Positions 38,640 through 53,752 of a stretch of DNA of 64,000 nucleotides are shown here, in pieces; the first letter of the stretch is position 1; each line of letters opens with the position of its first letter. Under the pieces are notes generated by a model. It did not search any database. It had not been told where the DNA came from and worked only from the letters and a program-made list of their open reading frames with translations. The DNA is from Bifidobacterium sp. 7101 (GTDB lineage Bacteria > Actinomycetota > Actinomycetes > Actinomycetales > Bifidobacteriaceae). The stretch covers positions 62,001 through 126,000 of the forward strand of contig NZ_AWUN01000003.1 in the NCBI RefSeq assembly GCF_000499285.1, written 5' to 3'. Made by a program: the position numbers and the translations under genes.

Positions 38640-41600
38640 TTACTCATGCGAAGCGTGAAGCAGCTGGTGTTGTTCTCTCCGGTGGCGGCGTGATGCCAGG
38701 ACACCGCCCGTGCCGGTCATGCCGGTGGCCAGGGCGAGCAGGATGCCTTCCCCGCCTGCCTTGGGGAGCACGCCTGCTGGCAGGTACGTGTACCTGAGGG
38801 AGGTGTCCGGCGTTTGGGGTGCGCCGCCCAGCGTGTAGTCCACGCTGACCGTGACCGTGCCCGGCTGGTGTGCAGGCGTGAGCACGCTGACGCTGCTTCC
38901 ATCACCGCTTTTCAGGTTCGTGCCGGGGCTGGTGTCAAATATGACACCCGTGATAATCCGCTGCAGGTTGAACACCACCGGTACAGGAACAGGACTATAG
39001 CTGCCTGTGGGGATGCTGTCGTTGCCGAGTTCTCCATAGTTGTTGTATCCCCAGGCGTAGGCGTTGCCGTCGCTGCCCACGGCCAGCGAATGAGAGCCTT
39101 TGGCGCTCACCTGCACGGCTTTCAGTCCTTTGCTCGTGTCGGTGGGGCTGGCGGGGTCATGCACGCGCACAGGAACGGAGGAGTTGTAGCTGCTGTTGTC
39201 GCCGAGCTGGCCATTGCCGTTGTACCCACAGGCATAGGCGTATCCGTTGCTGCCCACGGCCAGCGAATAATGTAACCCGGCGCTGACTTGTGTGGCTTTC
39301 AGCCCTTTACTCGTGTCGGTGGGGCTGGCGGGGTCGCGTACACGCACAGGAACAGGATTTACGGTGGAGCCTCTGGTGTTGTTGCCGAGCTGGCCAAATA
39401 AGTTGCATCCCCAGGCGTAGGCGTATCCGTTGCTGCCTAATGCCAGCGAATGATCGCCTCCGGCACTGACCTGCACGTAAGTGAAGTCCGCAGGCGCCCC
39501 CACCGTGACTGGCGTAGTCCGGTTGGTGGTTGTCCCGTCGCCGAGTTGGCCTTGCGCGTTGTATCCCCAGGCGTAGGCATTGCCGTCACTACCCACAGCC
39601 AGGGAATGACTACTTCCGGCGCTGACCTGCAAGTAGGTGAAGTCCGCGGGCGTGCCTTCAAGCTTCCGCACCTTGACCGGCGTATACTGCCTGGTACTCG
39701 TTCCGTCGCCGAGCTGGCCATAGTTGTTGTTCCCCCAGGCGTAGGCGTATCCGTCGTTGCCTATGGCCAGCGAATGATCGTATCCGGCGCTGACCTGCAG
39801 GTAGGTGAAGTCCGCGTGCGCGTCTGCAGGCTTGCTCACTTTGACTGGCGTAGTCCGGTTGGTGGTTGTCCCGTCGCCGAGTTGGCCTTGCGCGTTGTAT
39901 CCCCAGGCGTAGGCATTGCCGTCACTACCCACAGCCAGGGAATGCCGGTATCCGGCGCTGACCTGCAAGTAGGTGAAGTCCGTCGGCAAGTCCGGATACG
40001 TCTTGCGATCAGGCGTCCTCACCATGACTGGCGTACTCCGGGTGGTTCTTGTCCCGTCGCCGAGTTGGCCATAGCTGTTGTTTCCCCATGCGTAGGCGTT
40101 CCCGTCGCTGCCCACAGCCAAAGAAAAACCATAGCTGGAATCTTTCCCTCCACTAACCTGGCTGAACCTGATGTTCCTGCTGGTGTCTGGCGGTGTGATG
40201 ATGGTGGATTCCCAGCCCAGTTGGCTGCCCTGGTCGGGGCTGATGCTCCATGTGCTGTTCCGGCTTTCGGTCCAATTAGCGGTCAGGGTGAGGTCCTTGG
40301 TGACTGGCTTGCTGAAATCGTAGGCGACCTGCCCGATAAACCATCCGTCGAACTGGAAGCCTTTGCGCGCAGGATCGGTGGAGGGCCGCTTCACCCTGCT
40401 GTTTAAAGTGGAAAAATGCTGGTCTTCTGGTTCTGGGCTGCCACCGCCCGTGTCGAAGCGGACCGTAAATGTGGATCTTGGTTCGACATCTCGTGTCAGC
40501 GGCTGGTCGACCGTGTACTTCAGGCTCCTGGTGAAGGGCTGGTTGTCTTGTTTGCCGGCGATGAGGATGGTGGCTAGTCCCGGCTTGCGAGCGGGTATGT
40601 CCGTCTGCCAGGAGTCTTCTTTTTTGTTGAATCTGAGCGGCTTGCTGTCCATGCTGGCTGTTTCCAGTATGGGCGCTGTGGCGGTGTCGAGTCTGGCTGG
40701 CTTGCCGGACTGACCCTGCTCGTCTATGCTCCACATGAATATGCCGCCCTGCCTGCTGATGGCGGTGATCCTGCTGCCGGTGCTGGCGGCCTGCATGTAC
40801 TGCTGACTCCCGTCGTCCACGCGCTTGGGCGCTTCGCCGGGCTTCCAAGCCCAGACGCGGCCGTCCTTGCAGGTTATCGTGGCCTGGTCCTTGTTGGTGG
40901 AGATTGAGTTGGCTTTCATGTCTTCCGACAGTTCGACGGCTGCTGAATCGGTTGTGTTGTCGGTCAAATACCGGACGTGTCCGTCCGCGTCCTGGAGGAG
41001 GAACCCCTGGTTGAGGGCTTGGGCTTGGACGGTGCGCATGCCCGGGGCCTGCCTGACGCGTTCGGGTTTGACTTTGCCGGTCTTGCTTGCGTCCCAGGTC
41101 CAGGCCTGTCCATCTGCGTCCACGATGAGAGCCTGGCTGTCGGATGCTGTGGCGGTGACGGCCTGTACTTTTCCGGGCAGGCTGGCCGTGGCTAGCTTTG
41201 TGAATTTCGGGTTCAGATCCTGGCTGTCGGCATTATTGACCCGGTAGGCGTGGATTCGTCCCTGCTGGTCCACGGCCAGGAGCCGATTATCGTTCATGCT
41301 GATGCTGGTGAACCTGGTATTCTGATTGGAGTTGATAATCGTGGGCGCCGCTTGTCCGCTGGCCCATGTGTAGATGTGCTGGTCAGATCCCAGAGCGGCA
41401 TGCCATCGGCTGTCAGCTACGGCCTGCAGATAATGTAACCCGCCGGATGTCTGGGCGGGGAAAGGCATCTGTTTGGGTGTGCCGTCTTGCGTCCAGGTGC
41501 GGATGCGGCCGTCACCGGTCAGGCCGACAGCCTGGTCTCCCGCGGCCTGGAGGCTGACGTGGTATGGCTCCTGCCTATTGGGCGGGCTGATGGTCAGCCG

Positions 41601-41837
41601 CGCACCGGTAGCGGGCCCGTGGTCCGGGCTCAGTGTCCAGTCCGTTATCTTCGACCATTGTGCTTTCAAGGCCATGTCCTGGAGGACGGGGGTCTGGAAG
41701 TCAAAGGGCTGCCCGTCATGAGCCCACCCGTCGAACCGGAAGCCGGGACGTTGAGGATTGTGTTGCGGGGGGTGGCGAGAGTGCCGGTTTTCACGGTTGA
41801 CTGTGTGGGTTTGGTTCCGTCGGCCGGGTCGAAGCAC
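38640..41837 (-). CDS. RCC1-repeat, sortase-type surface protein: main body, out of frame with its signal peptide
   Basis: This frame carries most of a large cell-wall protein. Two halves each begin with an InlB-type B-repeat (FRFDGWAHDGQPFDF near residue 35; FQFDGWFIGQVAYDF in the middle) and continue into a seven-blade RCC1-like propeller. The first propeller is degenerate. The second has clear blades such as HSLAVGSDGNAYAWG and GQLGDGTTTNRTTPV. Near the C-terminus LPKAGGEG, a hydrophobic helix and RRHRRE form a sortase signal with Ala in place of Thr. The first 20 or so codons listed here are not family-like. One extra base in the six-G run at 41767-41772 joins this frame to the signal-peptide frame. 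The ligand is unknown; adhesion is the likely use. Confidence 0.78.
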   Translation of the reverse strand: MLRPGRRNQTHTVNRENRHSRHPPQHNPQRPGFRFDGWAHDGQPFDFQTPVLQDMALKAQWSKITDWTLSPDHGPATGARLTISPPNRQEPYHVSLQAAGDQAVGLTGDGRIRTWTQDGTPKQMPFPAQTSGGLHYLQAVADSRWHAALGSDQHIYTWASGQAAPTIINSNQNTRFTSISMNDNRLLAVDQQGRIHAYRVNNADSQDLNPKFTKLATASLPGKVQAVTATASDSQALIVDADGQAWTWDASKTGKVKPERVRQAPGMRTVQAQALNQGFLLQDADGHVRYLTDNTTDSAAVELSEDMKANSISTNKDQATITCKDGRVWAWKPGEAPKRVDDGSQQYMQAASTGSRITAISRQGGIFMWSIDEQGQSGKPARLDTATAPILETASMDSKPLRFNKKEDSWQTDIPARKPGLATILIAGKQDNQPFTRSLKYTVDQPLTRDVEPRSTFTVRFDTGGGSPEPEDQHFSTLNSRVKRPSTDPARKGFQFDGWFIGQVAYDFSKPVTKDLTLTANWTESRNSTWSISPDQGSQLGWESTIITPPDTSRNIRFSQVSGGKDSSYGFSLAVGSDGNAYAWGNNSYGQLGDGTRTTRSTPVMVRTPDRKTYPDLPTDFTYLQVSAGYRHSLAVGSDGNAYAWGYNAQGQLGDGTTTNRTTPVKVSKPADAHADFTYLQVSAGYDHSLAIGNDGYAYAWGNNNYGQLGDGTSTRQYTPVKVRKLEGTPADFTYLQVSAGSSHSLAVGSDGNAYAWGYNAQGQLGDGTTTNRTTPVTVGAPADFTYVQVSAGGDHSLALGSNGYAYAWGCNLFGQLGNNTRGSTVNPVPVRVRDPASPTDTSKGLKATQVSAGLHYSLAVGSNGYAYACGYNGNGQLGDNSSYNSSVPVRVHDPASPTDTSKGLKAVQVSAKGSHSLAVGSDGNAYAWGYNNYGELGNDSIPTGSYSPVPVPVVFNLQRIITGVIFDTSPGTNLKSGDGSSVSVLTPAHQPGTVTVSVDYTLGGAPQTPDTSLRYTYLPAGVLPKAGGEGILLALATGMTGTGGVLASRRHRREQHQLLHASHE
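39506..39608 (-). repeat. 103-bp exact direct repeat, copy 1 (RCC1 blade 4)
   Basis: Identical over all 103 bases to 39842-39944, 336 bases (112 codons) apart. Both code for a GYNAQGQLGDGTTTNRTTP-type blade of the second propeller. Recombination between copies would remove or add two blades without shifting frame. Confidence 0.9.
39842..39944 (-). repeat. 103-bp exact direct repeat, copy 2 (RCC1 blade 2)
   Basis: Partner of the repeat at 39506-39608, same orientation. The two flanking blades differ in sequence, so the identity is local and points to recent duplication or conversion. Confidence 0.9.
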
Positions 41838-47568: not shown

Positions 47569-48576
47569 ATGCAAAAGGTGCAGCGGTTCAGTGACTGGTT
47601 GACTAAGTGGTTCATTCTGGTGGTCCTAGCGTGGGCCGCCATCAACTTCTTTGTCCCGCAGATTAGCATTTGGGCCCGCAGCTACACCAACTACTTCCTG
47701 AGCATTATTCTCTTCGGCATGGGACTGACCCTGAGCCTGGACGACTTCAAGCGAATCGTCAAGATGCCGCTCATGGTCATCGTCGGCACTATAGCCCATT
47801 ACCTGATCATGCCCCTGCTGGCCGTGCTGCTCTGCCGCATCTTCCGACTGGACGGCATGATCGCTGTGGGAGTCATCCTGGTGGGCTGCTGCCCGTCGGG
47901 GACCTCCTCCAACGTCATGTCCTACCTTTCGCGCGGTGATGTGGCCCTGGACGTATCAATAGGACTGCTTTCCACCTTGTGTGCGCCCTTCATGATCCCC
48001 ATGCTGATGAACCTGCTGGCCAGCCAGTATGTGGCCATCCCCACCAAGCAGCTCTTCCTGACCGCCCTTGAGGTGGTGCTGATCCCCATCGCCCTGGGCC
48101 TGGCCGTCCACGCCATCTTCAAGGAGAAGGTGCAGAAGGTGACCGTGGCCCTGCCGGCCGTCTCGCAGATTGCCATCCTGGTCATCATCGGTGTGGTGGT
48201 CTCGGTCAACCATGCCAAGCTCTTCACCGCTGCCACTGCACTGGTTCTGCCGGTGGTCATGCTCCACAACCTGTGCGGGTACGGGCTGGGCTTCCTCTTC
48301 AGCCGGCTCATGTACCGCATCTACCCCAAAGGCTTCCGCTACGCCCAGCAGAAGGCCATCACCTTCGAGGTGGGCATGCAGGATTCCGGACTGGGCGCGA
48401 CCCTGGCCCTGCAGGCCTTCGCAGCCGACCCGATCGTGGCCATCCCCTCCACCTTCTTCAGCGTCTGGCACAACATCTCCGGATCGGTACTGTCCGCCTG
48501 GTGGCGTCGGCATGACGACCGTCTGGGGATTGCCGCCGACTCCGCCCAGGGTCGTCCGGAACCGGCTCGCGCCTGA
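47569..48576 (+). CDS. Bile acid:sodium symporter (BASS) family transporter
   Basis: A 335-residue protein with ten membrane helices. The characteristic BASS segment VGVILVGCCPSGTSSNVMSY (second half of the first repeat) and GMQDSGLGATLAL (second repeat) are both present, the latter holding the sodium-site residues. Family members import bile acids, pantoate-type organic anions or pyruvate. Bacterial substrates vary, and bile acid itself is not implied. AGGA a few bases before ATG 47569 supports the start. Confidence 0.88.
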   Translation: MQKVQRFSDWLTKWFILVVLAWAAINFFVPQISIWARSYTNYFLSIILFGMGLTLSLDDFKRIVKMPLMVIVGTIAHYLIMPLLAVLLCRIFRLDGMIAVGVILVGCCPSGTSSNVMSYLSRGDVALDVSIGLLSTLCAPFMIPMLMNLLASQYVAIPTKQLFLTALEVVLIPIALGLAVHAIFKEKVQKVTVALPAVSQIAILVIIGVVVSVNHAKLFTAATALVLPVVMLHNLCGYGLGFLFSRLMYRIYPKGFRYAQQKAITFEVGMQDSGLGATLALQAFAADPIVAIPSTFFSVWHNISGSVLSAWWRRHDDRLGIAADSAQGRPEPARA

Positions 48577-48608
48577 TTCCGGAACGCCTTGATTGCTGGC
48601 CGGACCTG

Positions 48609-48989
48609 CTATATGCCCGGTCCGGCCAGCAGGAAGCCCAGGGCCGTCAACAGAGGCGGCAGGAAGATCGAAGCTGTTAGATAGCACAGGGCTGCCAGAT
48701 GCCGTCTCTGCCGGGCCAGGGCCAGCACCTCGTTGACCGCTGTCGAGAAGGTGGAGAAGCCGCCCAGCAGTCCTGTGGCCAGCAGGAGCCGTCCCCAGTT
48801 AGGCAGTCCGTGGAAGGTGGCCAGGGCGGCCACCAGCCCTGCGGCCAATCCGGCCAACAGGTTGATGATCATGGTCGACAGGGGCAGGTCCACCTGCCAG
48901 CGGGCCTTGACCAGGGCATCCAGTAGGTAGCGCAGTCCGGCCCCCAGGCCGCCGCACAGGCAGATTAGCAACGTAAACGTAATGGTCAT
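48609..48989 (-). CDS. crcB: Fluoride channel CrcB, second copy of tandem pair
   Basis: A 126-residue four-helix membrane protein of the Fluc/CrcB family that exports fluoride. The conserved features are GGLGAGLRYLLD, a helix with NLLAG and TGLLGGFSTFSTAVNE (Phe-box and Ser/Thr track). The start overlaps the first copy's TGA (ATGA), so the frame open upstream to 49169 is only antisense to that gene. The two copies likely form a heterodimer, as in other Gram-positives with paired genes. Confidence 0.92.
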   Translation of the reverse strand: MTITFTLLICLCGGLGAGLRYLLDALVKARWQVDLPLSTMIINLLAGLAAGLVAALATFHGLPNWGRLLLATGLLGGFSTFSTAVNEVLALARQRRHLAALCYLTASIFLPPLLTALGFLLAGPGI

Positions 48990-49423
48990 CGCGCACCCGC
49001 CTGGACGCGTGCGGCAAGACGCGCTCCCAGCGCTGCCATGGCCCAGGAGACCGAGAGGCCTCCGGCGAAGGAGATCAACAGGTAGGCAAGGGTTGCCTGG
49101 ATTTGACCGCCCGACAGGCCCTGGACCAGTTCCAGCGAGAGGGTGGACATGGTTGAAAGTCCTCCGCACAGGCCCATGCCCAGGCCCTTGTTGGTCAGCT
49201 GCCTTCGGCGCGCATGCGTGCTTTTGGGCAGCCCGGCCAGGAAAGCGGTCAGCAGGGCGTAGCCTGCGCAGGCGATCAGGTTGGCCAGGAGGGTTCCCGG
49301 ATGCAGTGGGCCGCTCTGGCCCGGCAGCAGGCTCAAGGTGTACCGGCAGCCGGTGCCCAGGATTCCGCCCAGAATTACGACCAGAGCCGTGGCCATATCA
49401 GGTCCGGTAGGGGGTTTGGTCAT
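48986..49423 (-). CDS. crcB: Fluoride channel CrcB, first copy of tandem pair
   Basis: A 145-residue four-helix protein with GGILGTGCRY near the first helix, NLIACAGYALL in the second and GLCGGLSTMSTLSLE in the third, the CrcB signature pattern. ATG 49423 with GAGG six bases upstream was chosen; in-frame ATGs further up lie next to the riboswitch and give a long extension unlike the family. It lies about 95 bases behind a fluoride riboswitch and is followed by the second crcB in an overlapping start. Confidence 0.9.
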   Translation of the reverse strand: MTKPPTGPDMATALVVILGGILGTGCRYTLSLLPGQSGPLHPGTLLANLIACAGYALLTAFLAGLPKSTHARRRQLTNKGLGMGLCGGLSTMSTLSLELVQGLSGGQIQATLAYLLISFAGGLSVSWAMAALGARLAARVQAGAR

Positions 49424-49518
49424 TGGAGGCCTCGGTTCCCGACGGATCAGCATCCGCGGGGTCGGGCTGAATGGCATGCGCCTGCACCCGGCCCGCAGAC
49501 GGGGTCGTCGAATCATGG

Positions 49519-49578
49519 TGCAGGAACTATCAGCAGTTTGCGGTTCGGGGCTCAAGCCCCGGGCGGGTTCCATCGCCC
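49519..49578 (-). ncRNA. Fluoride (crcB) riboswitch
   Basis: In minus-strand sense the sequence GGCGATGGAACCCGCC, a GGGGCTTGAGCCCC hairpin and CTGATAGTTCCTGC follow each other, matching the crcB-motif consensus (GGCGATGG...CGCC, variable hairpin, CTGAT...CCTGC). The 3' end CCTGCACC can also pair with GGTGCAGG further on (plus-strand 49481-49488), giving a ready alternative fold. It sits in front of the tandem crcB genes, the expected target. Confidence 0.88.
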
Positions 49579-49615
49579 CAGGTCCATTCTAGGGGCGCTA
49601 GAGGACCGTAACTGT

Positions 49616-50968
49616 TCACTCGGTGTGATTCTCGGGGTCCAGGGTCAGCCGATCATCGTCGGCATCGTAGTCGAAGAGCTCGCCGTAGCGGCCCCAGGTG
49701 ATGGCGGTGTCGAACTGCTGGACGGCTTCCTTGTCCGAGTGGTGGGCCCGCAGCAGGTCCAGGATCAGGGAACCATGCAGACTCTTGTCGTCGCTGTTCT
49801 TCAGAGCCCTGTCGATGATGCGGATTAGCGGAACGTGGTCCATCAGCATCTTTGAGAACATCTCCTTGCTCTCCAGAATGTCCGCATCATGCCAGGCCCG
49901 GCCCTGGTCGGTCAGCCTGACATGTCCGTTGTCCGCCTGGAAGATACCCAGCATGAGCCCGGCGTCGATCAGAGGGAAGAGGTCATCCACTTCGAAGGAG
50001 AGCTTGGCGGCCAGGTCGGCCAGGTCCATGCCGTTGGGCTGGTTGACCATGACATCGGCCAGACCGGCCAGGCCGCCGGGGGTTGCGTCGGGCAGGTTGC
50101 GCTCCGCGGTCTCCTCGTCCCGCACCGAGTCCCGCACGGCCTGACGGTTGCGTACCTTGGTCTGCAGACGGCGGCGGATGTCCTCGCTGTCGCGCTGGCC
50201 GGTCAGGATGGAGTAGAGGTAGTCCACGCAGGACTGGAAGAGGTCGGACTGCTTGTCCCGAGGCCTGTCCAGGTTGATGGGCACGTTGGCGATGACCCGG
50301 CCCGGATGCGAGTCCAGGACCAGGACCCGGTCGGCCATCTCCACGGCCTCCTCGATGTTGTGGGTGACGATCAGGACCGACTTGACGCTGCCAGCCTCCT
50401 CGGACCAGACCTTGAGGACCTCCTGGCGTAGATTCTCGGCGGTCAGCACGTCCAGGGCCGAGAAGGGCTCGTCCATGAAGAGGGCGTCCGGCTTGAGGAC
50501 CAGGGCCCGGGCGATGCCCACGCGCTGGCGCATGCCGCCGGAGAGTTCCTTGGGGTAGGCGCTCTCGAAGCCGTCCAGGCCGATGGCGTCGATGGCGGCC
50601 AGGGAGAGTTTCTCGCGCTCCTTCTTGGGCACACCCCGGGCCTGCAGGCCCAGTTCGACGTTGTCCTTGACGGTCAGCCAGGGCATCAGGGCGAAGCTCT
50701 GGAAGACCAGTGCCACGCCGGGGTTGGGCCCGTCCAGCTGCTTGCCCCGGTATTCGACGCTGCCCTTGCTGGCCGGAACCAGGCCGGCCAGGATGCGCAG
50801 CAGGGTGGACTTGCCAGCGCCTGAGCGGCCCAGGATGGCCACCACCTCGCCCTCATGCAGGGTGAAGTCGATGTTGTCCAGGACGGTCAGCTCCGCGCCC
50901 TTGTCGGACTGGTAGGTCTTGGTCACGTGCTCGGCCGTGATGATTCCGTTGGAATTGATCTTGGTCAT
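49616..50968 (-). CDS. NitT/TauT-like ABC transporter ATPase with C-terminal AAA-associated domain
   Basis: The 450-residue protein has an ATPase domain (1-260) with GRSGAGKST, LSGGMRQRV, ALFMDEPFSALD and IVTHN. A second region (about 310-440) resembles the AAA-associated C-terminal domain: DVMVNQPNGMDLADLA, then a long helical part ending acidic. ATG 50968 is behind AGAGG; the frame continues upstream only as antisense of the permease gene. It follows the double permease by 20 bases. No substrate-binding protein gene is nearby. The leader of the operon matches an M-box, so the substrate may be Mg2+ or another metal rather than nitrate or sulfonate. Confidence 0.9.
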   Translation of the reverse strand: MTKINSNGIITAEHVTKTYQSDKGAELTVLDNIDFTLHEGEVVAILGRSGAGKSTLLRILAGLVPASKGSVEYRGKQLDGPNPGVALVFQSFALMPWLTVKDNVELGLQARGVPKKEREKLSLAAIDAIGLDGFESAYPKELSGGMRQRVGIARALVLKPDALFMDEPFSALDVLTAENLRQEVLKVWSEEAGSVKSVLIVTHNIEEAVEMADRVLVLDSHPGRVIANVPINLDRPRDKQSDLFQSCVDYLYSILTGQRDSEDIRRRLQTKVRNRQAVRDSVRDEETAERNLPDATPGGLAGLADVMVNQPNGMDLADLAAKLSFEVDDLFPLIDAGLMLGIFQADNGHVRLTDQGRAWHDADILESKEMFSKMLMDHVPLIRIIDRALKNSDDKSLHGSLILDLLRAHHSDKEAVQQFDTAITWGRYGELFDYDADDDRLTLDPENHTE

Positions 50969-50988
50969 TGTCGAACCTCTCAGACTTC

Positions 50989-52752
50989 TCATGTCAGGGA
51001 ATAGCGCCGTTGTGCCAGTGATTGCAGGGGAGACCAGAAGAACCGGTCGGCCAGGACCACGAAGATGCTCATGACGGCCACCCCCAGGATGATGCGGGGG
51101 GCGTCGCCGGTGGCGGTCACCTGGGCGATGTAGGCACCCAGGCCCTTGGCCGTCAGCTCGGTTTTGCCGTAGGAGACCACCTCGGAGACGATGGATGCGT
51201 TCCAGGCCCCGCCGGCCGCTGTGATGCCGCCGGTGCACCAGGAGCCGAACAGGGCCGGCAGGATCAGGGTCTTCCATCGTTGCCAGCGGTTCTGGCCCAG
51301 GCTGCGCGACATCTCCAGCAGGTCGTCGGGGATGGCGGAGGCACCGGCGATGACGTTGAAGAGGATGTACCACTGGGTGCCCAGGGCCATGAGCAGGATG
51401 CTGCCCCAGTTGATGTCGATTCGCCAGATGATGAAGACCATGGTAACGAAGGGGAAGATGAAGTTGGCCGGGAAGGAGGCCAGGATCTGCACCAGAGGCT
51501 GCAGGTAGCGGGAGATGCGCGGATTCATGCCGATCAGGGCACCAATCGGAACCCAGACGATGGTGCAGACCACCATCAGGATCAGCACTCGCAGGAAGGT
51601 CAGCAGACCCAGCTGGAAGACATGCCCGACCTCGCCCAGACCCAGTGGACGGATGACCAGACGGTCCAGCTGCCAGAGTCCCCACAGGCCGATCAGAGCC
51701 AGGCAGACCCACCAGACCAGGTCGCTTGCCCGCCTGCGTCCGCCGCCACGGCCCCAGCGCGCCCCGGTGCGGCCCAGTGGGCGGGTGATTCGGTCCAGCA
51801 GGTCGGCCAGTGGATGACCCACCAGGCCCAAGAGGTCCTTGACCCCGGACAGACGGATGACCGTCAGCACCAGGCTGTGCCGGGGCTCGGTGGACTGGCT
51901 GCTGGTGTAGCGGAACTTCTCGGCCCAGGCGGTCAGCGGCTTCCAGAGCAGGAAGTCAATCAAGAGGACCACCACAATCATGGTCAGGATGGCCAGGCCC
52001 ACCTTGCCCAGATCCTGCTCGGCGGTGGCCTCCTCCACGAAGGAGCCGATGCCGGGCAGAGCCAGGGTCCTGTTGTTGACCGAGATCATCTCGGAGGCGG
52101 TCAGGAAGAACCAGCCGCCGCCCATGCTCATCATGCAGTTCCAGAGCAGGGGAATCATGGAGTTGGGCACGTCCAGCTTCCAGAAGCGCTGCCAGCGGGT
52201 CAGGCGCATCAGCCTCACCGCCTCGTCCAGGTCGGTGGGCTCGCTGGTCAGGGAGTTGTAGAAGGAGAAGGCCATGTTCCAGGCCTGGCTGGTGAAGATG
52301 GCGAAGATGGAGGCCGCCTCCACGCCCATGATGGACCCGGGGAAGAGGACCAGCCAGATGGAGATGGTGGCCGACAGGAAACCCAGGACGGGCACCGACT
52401 GCAGGATGTCCAGCAGGGGGATGAGCACGGCGCCCAGGCGGCGGGAGCGCGCGGCGGCCAGTCCGTAGACAAAGGCGAAGACCAGGGAGATGATTAGGGC
52501 CGCGAACATGCGGAAGAGGGAGCGCAGCGCGTAGTAAGGCAGGTTGGCCGGGTCGGTGGAGACGTGGGAGGGAACGCCGGCGGGACCGATGGGGGCACCC
52601 AGGGCCGGCAGCAGATAGGCCAGGGCCCCCAGCAGGACCAGTGCGCCTATGGCTACGGCCAGGCCCGTCCATATGCGGGTGGAGCGCGATGCCTGGCTGC
52701 GGTCGTCGTTCAGTGGCGAACGGAGCATTCCTGGCAGTGCGACAGTATTCAC
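50989..52752 (-). CDS. NitT/TauT-like ABC permease with two membrane domains in one chain
   Basis: The 587-residue permease joins two MetI-type membrane domains. Each has the EAA-like coupling loop: DEAVRLMRLTRWQRFWKLD in the first and EMSRSLGQNRWQRWKTL in the second. About six helices flank each loop, with a basic linker between. GTG 52752 is set by GGGAGG five bases upstream; the open frame further up to 53268 is leader and antisense DNA. Fusion means one chain replaces the usual homodimer. A 5' leader of about 230 bases contains the M-box-like structure. Confidence 0.88.
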   Translation of the reverse strand: MNTVALPGMLRSPLNDDRSQASRSTRIWTGLAVAIGALVLLGALAYLLPALGAPIGPAGVPSHVSTDPANLPYYALRSLFRMFAALIISLVFAFVYGLAAARSRRLGAVLIPLLDILQSVPVLGFLSATISIWLVLFPGSIMGVEAASIFAIFTSQAWNMAFSFYNSLTSEPTDLDEAVRLMRLTRWQRFWKLDVPNSMIPLLWNCMMSMGGGWFFLTASEMISVNNRTLALPGIGSFVEEATAEQDLGKVGLAILTMIVVVLLIDFLLWKPLTAWAEKFRYTSSQSTEPRHSLVLTVIRLSGVKDLLGLVGHPLADLLDRITRPLGRTGARWGRGGGRRRASDLVWWVCLALIGLWGLWQLDRLVIRPLGLGEVGHVFQLGLLTFLRVLILMVVCTIVWVPIGALIGMNPRISRYLQPLVQILASFPANFIFPFVTMVFIIWRIDINWGSILLMALGTQWYILFNVIAGASAIPDDLLEMSRSLGQNRWQRWKTLILPALFGSWCTGGITAAGGAWNASIVSEVVSYGKTELTAKGLGAYIAQVTATGDAPRIILGVAVMSIFVVLADRFFWSPLQSLAQRRYSLT

Positions 52753-53119
52753 GATGGCCTCCCTCCAAGGTGCGGAACATCCCTGTCGGCAGCCTCGAAG
52801 ACGGCGTGGCAATCGGCCCATGAGCCGATCATTGTCATCGTTCAAGCTTCGGCTTCGCATGGTATTTGGCCCTGCATTAGTCCCTGCCTTGATCCGACGG
52901 GGACTGTTGACCTGCGCGGGGTGTCTCCACCACTTTGCGGCAGCATGCCTTGTCCATGCGGTAGCTTCACCTACCGACCACCCAATAACATAGATGGGCC
53001 CTGGGGGCAGTGTCAAGCATTTGCCTAACCAGTGTTGCCGTCCTTGCCAGGACTGACAATGACAAGGGTCTGCACGCAGTCGGTGCAGGTGCGAAATGGA
53101 ATGTAAGGAGTGAATCCCT
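52753..53119. other. Leader region with M-box, between divergent ABC operon and oxidoreductase gene
   Basis: The left two thirds is the 5' leader of the minus-strand ABC operon, with the M-box-like element (52831-52986) and the hairpin ATCGGC/GCCGAT (52812-52829) near the start codon. The right part should hold the divergent promoters. CTGCAC-GTGCAG near 53073-53091 is a 6-bp inverted repeat in front of the oxidoreductase gene. Confidence 0.6.
52831..52986 (-). ncRNA. M-box (ykoK, Mg2+-sensing) riboswitch
   Basis: Read on the minus strand, the leader has the M-box elements in order: GGTAGGTGAAGCTACC (P2 region), GCATGCTGCCGCAAAG (core), GGAGACACC, AGGTCAACAG, the long P5-like hairpin CAGTCCC/GGGACT, TAATGCAGGGC, and CATGCGAAGCCGAAGCTT near the 3' end. 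Short ATTG...TCG / CGATGACAAT ends can form P1. These are the diagnostic strings of the known Mg2+ riboswitch. It lies directly upstream of the double permease. Mode of control is unclear: the later hairpin has no T-run. Confidence 0.82.
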
Positions 53120-53752
53120 ATGAAGATCGTGGCAGTCACGGCCAACCCCGAACCCAAGAGTCTGACCGATGCGGCGGGCAACGCCCTGCTGGACGGTGCG
53201 GCCGAGGGCGGGGCTCGCACCGAGTTGATCGACCTTTGCGCCGAGGGGTTCAATCCCGTCTTCGGCATGGAGGACAGGACCCACTACCTGGGCCAGGGAC
53301 CCATGCCCGAGGATGTCCAGGCCATGCAGGAGCGAATCAAGGATGCGGACGTGCTGGCCCTGGTCTTCCCCGTTTACTGGTACAGCATGCCGGCCATCAT
53401 GAAGGGCTTCATTGACCGGGTCATCTGCAGGGGATTCGCCTATAACGCTGATGGAACCCCGGGAGCTCTGGCCGGACGGCGTGTGGAGCTGGTCATGCTG
53501 ACCGGCGGAGACAAGGAATGGTACCAGTCCAGCGGCATCGGAGAGGCCCTGGACAACCAGCTGCGCAGGCAGACCTTCCTCAAGTACTGCCAGGTCGCGC
53601 AGGTGGAGACCATCTATGTGGACAATCTGGATTCGGGCAACGACGAGCAGCAGGCGCGCGAGGCGGCCGACCGGCACCTGGTGGCCCTGGCCCTCAAGGG
53701 TCGTCAGCTGGCCGCAGGGACCGAGCCTGAAGCAGGCCAGGACGCTCAGTGA
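53120..53752 (+). CDS. Flavodoxin-fold NAD(P)H oxidoreductase (MdaB/NQO family)
   Basis: A 210-residue FMN/FAD-type quinone reductase. The conserved segment LVFPVYWYSMPAIMKGFID (flavin phosphate and dimer region) and LTGGDKEWY later in the chain are typical of the flavodoxin-like fold 2 family. It probably reduces quinones by two electrons to limit radical formation. ATG 53120 is well placed and has AAGGAG ten bases before. The next gene's GTG overlaps its TGA. A disordered acidic tail of about 15 residues ends the protein. Confidence 0.87.
   Translation: MKIVAVTANPEPKSLTDAAGNALLDGAAEGGARTELIDLCAEGFNPVFGMEDRTHYLGQGPMPEDVQAMQERIKDADVLALVFPVYWYSMPAIMKGFIDRVICRGFAYNADGTPGALAGRRVELVMLTGGDKEWYQSSGIGEALDNQLRRQTFLKYCQVAQVETIYVDNLDSGNDEQQAREAADRHLVALALKGRQLAAGTEPEAGQDAQ

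Follow-up and report, generated by a model that had tools for sequence, protein, structure and literature searches.

The M-box operon and its surroundings

The window (the whole stretch of 64,000 nucleotides from Bifidobacterium sp. 7101 analysed here) contains, on its minus strand, an M-box followed by genes for a fused ABC permease and an ABC ATPase (Table 1). An earlier note, made from the sequence alone, had placed the M-box at 52831-52986 and had named a covariance search as the check. In cmscan against Rfam, RF00380 (M-box, ykoK leader) was matched over the whole model (1-169), at 95.3 bits and an E value of 8.9e-20 and well beyond the gathering score of 44; the match runs from 52985 to 52827, and the placement had thus been correct to a few bases. 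A genome-wide scan found no second M-box in the source genome, this copy being the sole one. The aptamer can be aligned with 26 other M-boxes with 23 columns invariant, i.e. its conserved core is present, and the stretch 3' of the CUAAUGCA string is shorter than in the model. A promoter-like site has its 3' end one base 5' of the modelled M-box; across 48400-53300, three such sites were found against 0.5 expected from shuffles. A transcript starting 6-8 nt past this site would begin inside the unpaired 5' end of the aptamer.

Table 1. Features at and around the M-box operon, in window positions
Feature	Position	Strand	Basis
Sigma-70-like promoter, TTGACA-18 nt-TATGTT	52987..53016	-	Pattern scan, 10/12 matches; consensus match only
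M-box (ykoK leader) Mg2+ riboswitch aptamer, RF00380	52827..52985	-	cmscan
Putative translational expression platform	52758..52812	-	RNA folds and terminator scan
Fused (duplicated) ABC permease, 587 aa, GTG start	50989..52752	-	PF00528 twice
ABC ATPase with C-terminal AAA_assoc_C, 450 aa	49616..50968	-	PF00005 and PF09821
Fluoride riboswitch (crcB RNA motif), RF01734	49514..49586	-	35.2 bits, gathering score 34
crcB-like fluoride channel gene 1	48986..49396	-	PF02537; ORF open to 49573, start 49396 inferred
crcB-like fluoride channel gene 2	48609..48989	-	PF02537; ORF open to 49169, start inferred

A terminator scan of the window gave no terminator-like site in the stretch that separates the M-box from the GTG start, which makes control at the level of translation, perhaps with the participation of Rho, most likely. 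The analogy is with the pe20 M-box of M. tuberculosis, likewise actinobacterial, whose expression platform is translational and works with Rho according to the excerpts of PMC12810186. The two cases differ in that the pe20 M-box governs PE/PPE genes and the one in the window an ABC transporter; moreover, the conserved uORF rv1805A with its N-terminal proline, which the same excerpts place 3' of the pe20 M-box (with mgtC in the operon), has no counterpart in the leader of the window. The candidate platform in the window has a pyrimidine-rich 5' arm (about 52793-52803) that could pair with the Shine-Dalgarno sequence GGAGGGAGG (52758-52766), and in predicted folds of nine distinct short leaders the Shine-Dalgarno sequence was judged by eye to be at least partly paired. 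Its pairing reached p 0.05 or better against shuffles in just 5/31 leaders and that of the other arm in 1/31, while the fold of the whole window leader had no extra stability over shuffles (z -0.17). Because complementarity across the 31 leaders is no better than in shuffled sequences, we present the translational platform as putative. An anti-Shine-Dalgarno element able to pair with the Shine-Dalgarno sequence as well as with the 3' aptamer strand was considered and left aside as unsupported, the overlap occurring in 13 of 31 distinct bifidobacterial leaders against 10.2 expected.

The earlier note had described the pair at 49616-52752 as a fused permease and an ATPase with a C-terminal AAA-associated domain, lacking a substrate-binding gene. 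Pfam bears out the former, and no binding-protein gene was found among the ORFs of the operon. The BPD_transp_1 permease and NitT-type ATPase are those of a NitT/TauT-type transporter; it is the dedicated binding protein of this type that the operon lacks. Binding proteins of the NMT1_2 family (PF13379) have zero matches in the source genome, and PF13379 is missing from 24/27 genomes of the genus. Two NMT1 (PF09084) matches occur in the source genome, a weak one of 22.6 bits (cut-off 20.5) and a strong one of 166 bits, whose gene is directly followed by a permease gene (PF00528) of its own. One CorA above the curated cut-off is present in each of the 27 genomes of the genus, MgtE in 0/27, and the CorA gene of the source genome has no M-box. 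Among the matches listed, the permeases of the B. mizhiense and B. apousia loci, which we take to belong to the asteroides group, are 98% identical to that of the window.

By sequence, the nearest solved relatives of the permease are CmpB (bicarbonate) and NrtB (nitrate), both anion transporters; by fold, these two are joined by FbpBC, a ferric importer. The CmpBCD and NrtBCD systems differ from the transporter in the window in that their permeases are separate chains, their ATPase chains are of two kinds and their substrates are anions. Profile matches to the NtrB, TauC and NtrC/D families all fall under the curated cut-offs, and so do the best profiles of the ATPase (taurine, SaoA, NtrCD). 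In the AlphaFold model of the permease (pLDDT 80.6, pTM 0.82), the two permease halves are visible; as a clue to the substrate, which it did not reveal, the model was discarded.

A fluoride riboswitch lies 29 nt 3' of the ATPase gene and is followed by two crcB-like genes (48609-49586, minus strand), placing two different ion riboswitches serially in one gene run. Pairs of crcB genes follow the transporter also in loci L075, L081 and L087 and in 4 of 17 family loci L186-L202 (L186-L189); the fluoride riboswitch exceeds the gathering score once among these 17 loci (L188). The crcB pairs were regarded as neighbours in some lineages, and a fluoride link as part of the Mg2+ story was set aside. 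Elsewhere in the window, 38640-41837 on the minus strand encodes a large repeat protein, probably exposed at the surface, with RCC1-like GxNxxGQLG repeats (recognized by eye) and an LPKAG-like tail for cell-wall sorting at its end.

Distribution of M-boxes at transporter loci

In a sample of 59 genomes (the source genome and others of its genus, family and order), the M-box was present in 24, all of them in the genus (24/27), and the permease was located directly 3' of it in 24/24. Across the family, 41 of 189 genomes contain an M-box, one apiece. It adjoins a permease orthologue in all 41, 40 being full-length and one 5'-truncated (G167), with adjacency in G164 judged from coordinates only; 0.02 adjacencies would be expected if each of the 41 M-boxes fell anywhere in a 2.1-Mb genome. 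Full-length orthologues were detected in 67 family genomes (65 as a single match, 2 as two matches of one frame), 40 with an M-box and 27 without. No hidden M-boxes were found in the 27 M-box-free leaders, all of which were covered by the combination of Rfam searches at E <=1 (9 loci) and our own model with filters off (24 loci). The latter search gave one strong match, L213, which is the known M-box of G164, and the next best had an E value of 0.08 over 52 bases. At the locus of the truncated gene (L034, G167), the M-box abuts a permease gene without its first two thirds, the ATPase gene still being downstream; to all appearances, this is a decaying permease copy beneath an intact riboswitch.

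For a wider comparison, 83 loci were used, 79 drawn from the best 80 among 583 relatives confirmed in bacteria and archaea and four from plasmids, and all counts out of 83 refer to this set. The ATPase gene is present within 1.5 kb 3' of the permease gene in 78/83 loci. An M-box model built here gave 20 matches in 19/83 loci, and in 16 of these the M-box is upstream of the transporter on the same strand: six Bifidobacteriaceae, four Tsukamurella, four Nocardia, an uncultured Anaerolineae (L114) and Citrifermentans bremense (L152). The gene order in the Tsukamurella and Nocardia loci is M-box-mgtC-permease-ATPase (MgtC was checked with Pfam in two of the eight), and in L114 and L152 the M-box stands directly before the permease. 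A hairpin with a T-rich tail, of 12 pairs in L114 and 11 pairs in L152, lies 3' of the M-box, an arrangement like that of riboswitches that act by terminating transcription; as bare patterns, hairpins of this kind are not unusual, with 2 per stretch against 0.5 (L114) and 0.9 (L152) in shuffles. In three loci (L074, L086 with two M-boxes, and L123), the M-box is aimed at another gene. No M-box was found in 64/83 loci, including all cyanobacterial and Burkholderiaceae ones; the role of the transporter may therefore differ by clade, and we do not extend our claim to the whole transporter family.

The earlier note had also suggested a search in front of orthologous pairs in other actinobacteria, and M-boxes are indeed present there, in Tsukamurella and Nocardia (via mgtC) and in L171, a further actinobacterium with the M-box ahead of a permease of 49% identity. 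L171 comes from sampled genomes of the phylum, 22/296 of which contained an M-box. At L086 (Streptomyces orinoci), two near-identical M-boxes flank the transporter, the left one facing away and the right one facing an NRAMP gene; the genome contains 8 M-boxes, several of them close together.

Among the matches listed, MgtC is encoded in the transporter locus of 13/32 actinobacterial genomes against 0.09 expected. These genomes, all outside Bifidobacteriaceae, contain 44 MgtC copies in total and contribute one locus each; the count omits L151 (a second locus, with no MgtC match) and a weak partial match in L086 (37%, 73 aa). NRAMP-type genes occur in 7/83 loci (L074, L086, L089, L123, L127, L132 and L139, of which L086 alone was checked with Pfam). 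The latter might indicate that the transporter handles another divalent metal, e.g. Mn2+, and that the M-box senses that metal or divalents generally; the excerpts of PMC12810186 likewise describe, for mycobacterial M-boxes, a class associated with manganese transporters, and cite binding of other divalents. MgtC is, however, the commoner neighbour, and we consider this explanation quite unlikely.

In a permease tree of 70 rows, no fewer than three gains or losses on starred branches are required to account for the M-box rows; this count sets them against the MgtC and NRAMP rows only and leaves out the 42/70 rows in none of the three groups. L114 groups with a Chloroflexota row next to those of cyanobacteria, and L152 with a Chlorobium row next to those of proteobacteria. 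The separate M-box placements and the MgtC association strongly disfavour the view that M-box and gene adjoin by descent only, the transporter being an ordinary importer of the nitrate/sulfonate type. The terminator-like hairpins in two other phyla and the lack of a PF13379 binding protein in the source genome also speak against such an importer, and the NtrB, TauC and NtrC/D matches that would favour it stay below their cut-offs; we consider it very improbable.

A probable role in magnesium starvation and possible substrates of the transporter

The association of an M-box with this ABC transporter in bifidobacteria is already published for B. breve. In the excerpts of PMC5746004 (2017), a ykoK leader/M-box is reported in the expressed 5'UTR of the ABC transporter Bbr_0406-07, the permease is assigned to COG4986 and metal-ion homeostasis is proposed. 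Bbr_0406-07 of B. breve UCC2003 resembles the operon in the window in its M-box, COG4986 permease, ABC ATPase and genus, and its COG class and M-box context suggest that the two transporters are orthologous; the study differs in being, as excerpted, a comparison within B. breve without a substrate test. The "new job for this transporter type" suggested by the earlier note had thus, as an observation, been anticipated. Its companion proposal, of a transporter linked to Mg2+ rather than a nitrate or sulfonate importer, is supported as far as the linkage is concerned, M-box or MgtC neighbours being present in three phyla. The M-box link of this transporter outside Bifidobacterium was not found in the literature searched, which covered few subscription papers.

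Since the M-box and MgtC neighbours of the homologues span several actinobacterial families and two other phyla, a Mg2+-linked transporter is supported, and the one in the window is probably a magnesium-starvation transporter. In the reading that we favour (probability about 0.6), the M-box would be OFF at high Mg2+, and the transporter, made at low Mg2+, would import Mg2+ or a Mg2+ complex. Transcription would probably start at the edge of the M-box. Following the OFF logic of studied M-boxes, the folded aptamer would keep the transporter off at high Mg2+, whereas at low Mg2+ the aptamer would refold and the fused permease and ATPase would be made. The M-box, the operon and the recurring association with M-boxes and MgtC are observed; it is the Mg2+ response, the direction of transport and the substrate of the operon that we infer here. 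An M-box-controlled ABC transporter lacking a binding protein, in a genome whose CorA gene has no M-box, fits an inducible Mg2+ system; the NitT/TauT-type permease and AAA_assoc_C ATPase, with no dedicated binding protein, would most likely serve, alongside the one CorA, to import Mg2+ or a complex of it. We know of no established ABC-type Mg2+ importer. Bacterial Mg2+ uptake is known from CorA, MgtE and P-type ATPases; should Mg2+ be the solute moved here, ABC transporters would be a further class, and the "nitrate/sulfonate/bicarbonate" labels of some clades would need renaming.

Because the nearest solved relatives carry bicarbonate or nitrate, the substrate may be a Mg2+ complex or another solute of Mg2+ starvation. 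In the second case, the operon would respond to low Mg2+ but transport a substitute or partner solute, for example a polyamine, an osmolyte, citrate or another anion. Besides the anion importers closest by sequence, the frequent neighbour MgtC is consistent with this, since MgtC, originally annotated as a Mg2+ transporter, need not be one (PMC12810186, excerpts). Against it, M-box control of this transporter is seen in three phyla, and NRAMP metal transporter genes (L086, L123) are among the M-box neighbours at the transporter loci; a non-Mg2+ substrate appears unlikely, though by no means negligible.

Acidic short ORFs in the leaders

Many other bifidobacteria have, between the M-box and the permease, a short ORF (uORF) that begins with acidic residues behind a strong Shine-Dalgarno sequence (MDDVPHHS, MDSDSAHQ, MSDELPSS, MADDPPSS, MKHDSSSS and others). 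Defined by one or more D or E among residues 2-6, Shine-Dalgarno-led acidic uORFs are present in 49/67 family leaders, 24/40 with an M-box and 25/27 without, and an M-box, a uORF or both in 65/67. The 16 M-box leaders without a uORF are those of the window and its 15 closest orthologues by permease score, where nothing similar to MgtL or MgtQ (see below) was found and the permease starts 73-76 nt 3' of the M-box. Examples of a uORF without an M-box are L203-L211, L193 and L194, one group having a close promoter-like site. The M-box-free M(AD/TS)DLPSS group has a promoter-like TTGACA...TTATTTTA, noticed by eye, just 5' of the uORF, the first codons of which are conserved and the flanks not. Codons 2-14 of its seven distinct uORF sequences include nine variable codons, four of them synonymous only and five residue-changing, with 3, 4 and 7 variable columns by codon position; in this small sample of seven sequences, the variation leans towards coding.

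More generally, a short Shine-Dalgarno-led ORF is located 25-260 nt past the aptamer in 46/78 M-box leaders (24/41 bifidobacterial, 22/37 others), a set that omits the short loci L164 and L173 and the copies or near copies L075, L077, L079, L080, L081 and L087. An acidic residue at positions 2-6 is present in all but two of the 22 non-bifidobacterial uORFs (the exceptions being MPGGN in two Nocardia). MPDDSHS precedes mgtC in Tsukamurella, and MS(P/S)xDSP occurs in further M-box loci, presumably mycobacterial. For 22 representatives, chosen out of the 46 for dissimilarity, the mean number of acidic residues at positions 2-8 is 1.59, a value unreached in 20,000 resamples; the controls, Shine-Dalgarno-led ORFs of other loci, average 0.59 (338 short ones) and 0.54 (294 long ones). 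An acidic residue lies at most three positions from a proline in 68% of the representatives as against 16% of the short and 13% of the long controls, and two acidic residues are adjacent or one apart in 10/22 versus 54/632 (Fisher p 1e-5). Because the representatives are partly related by descent, these figures overstate the enrichment. No such ORF was found in 32/78 leaders, 16 of which form the group of the window and most others of which precede mgtE-like or other genes; L114 and L152, the leaders with terminator-like hairpins, also have none.

The joint presence of an M-box and a uORF is already in print (PMC4974804, PMC12810186). In the excerpts of PMC4974804, uORFs are described upstream of mgtC and mgtE of M. 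abscessus, that of mgtE being ribosome-protected and coincident with an M-box; an M-box and a translated uORF thus stand together before a Mg2+ transporter gene. The case differs from ours in its transporter (MgtE, not ABC; vcgB homologue), and the excerpts give no acidic-peptide mechanism. The authors of PMC12810186, as excerpted, deem uORF2 of M. tuberculosis mycobacteria-specific. In the enterobacterial leader peptides MgtL (EPDP, Glu2, Asp4) and MgtQ (Asp2, Glu5), early acids destabilise translating ribosomes, leading to higher expression of Mg2+ transporters (PMC11282234 and PMC8092293, excerpts). The bifidobacterial uORFs are similarly short, have acidic residues at positions 2-5 and precede transporter genes, but they are known from sequence, the window is without one, and the excerpts link MgtL and MgtQ neither to M-boxes nor to actinobacteria. 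By this analogy, the candidate uORFs of actinobacteria would appear to follow the principle of the acidic leader peptides MgtL and MgtQ.

Tentatively, and at less than even odds, we propose that actinobacterial Mg2+ genes might be governed by two stacked sensors, an M-box and an acidic (often acid/proline) leader peptide that would read Mg2+ through ribosome stability as MgtL does. In bifidobacteria, these sensors would be interchangeable, with both, the peptide only, or the M-box only (as in the group of the window) controlling the would-be ABC-type Mg2+ importer. The acidic-peptide reading of M-box uORFs was not found in the literature searched, again with few subscription papers. If true, the leader peptide would be a second Mg2+ sensor able to replace a riboswitch, and the uORFs of actinobacterial M-boxes would be explained.

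In another class of the phylum, NRAMP-type genes are located under M-boxes (L155, L158 and L160, the first two checked with Pfam). The uORFs of these loci start with MDSEPG and MESDPG, in close likeness to the EPDP motif of MgtL.
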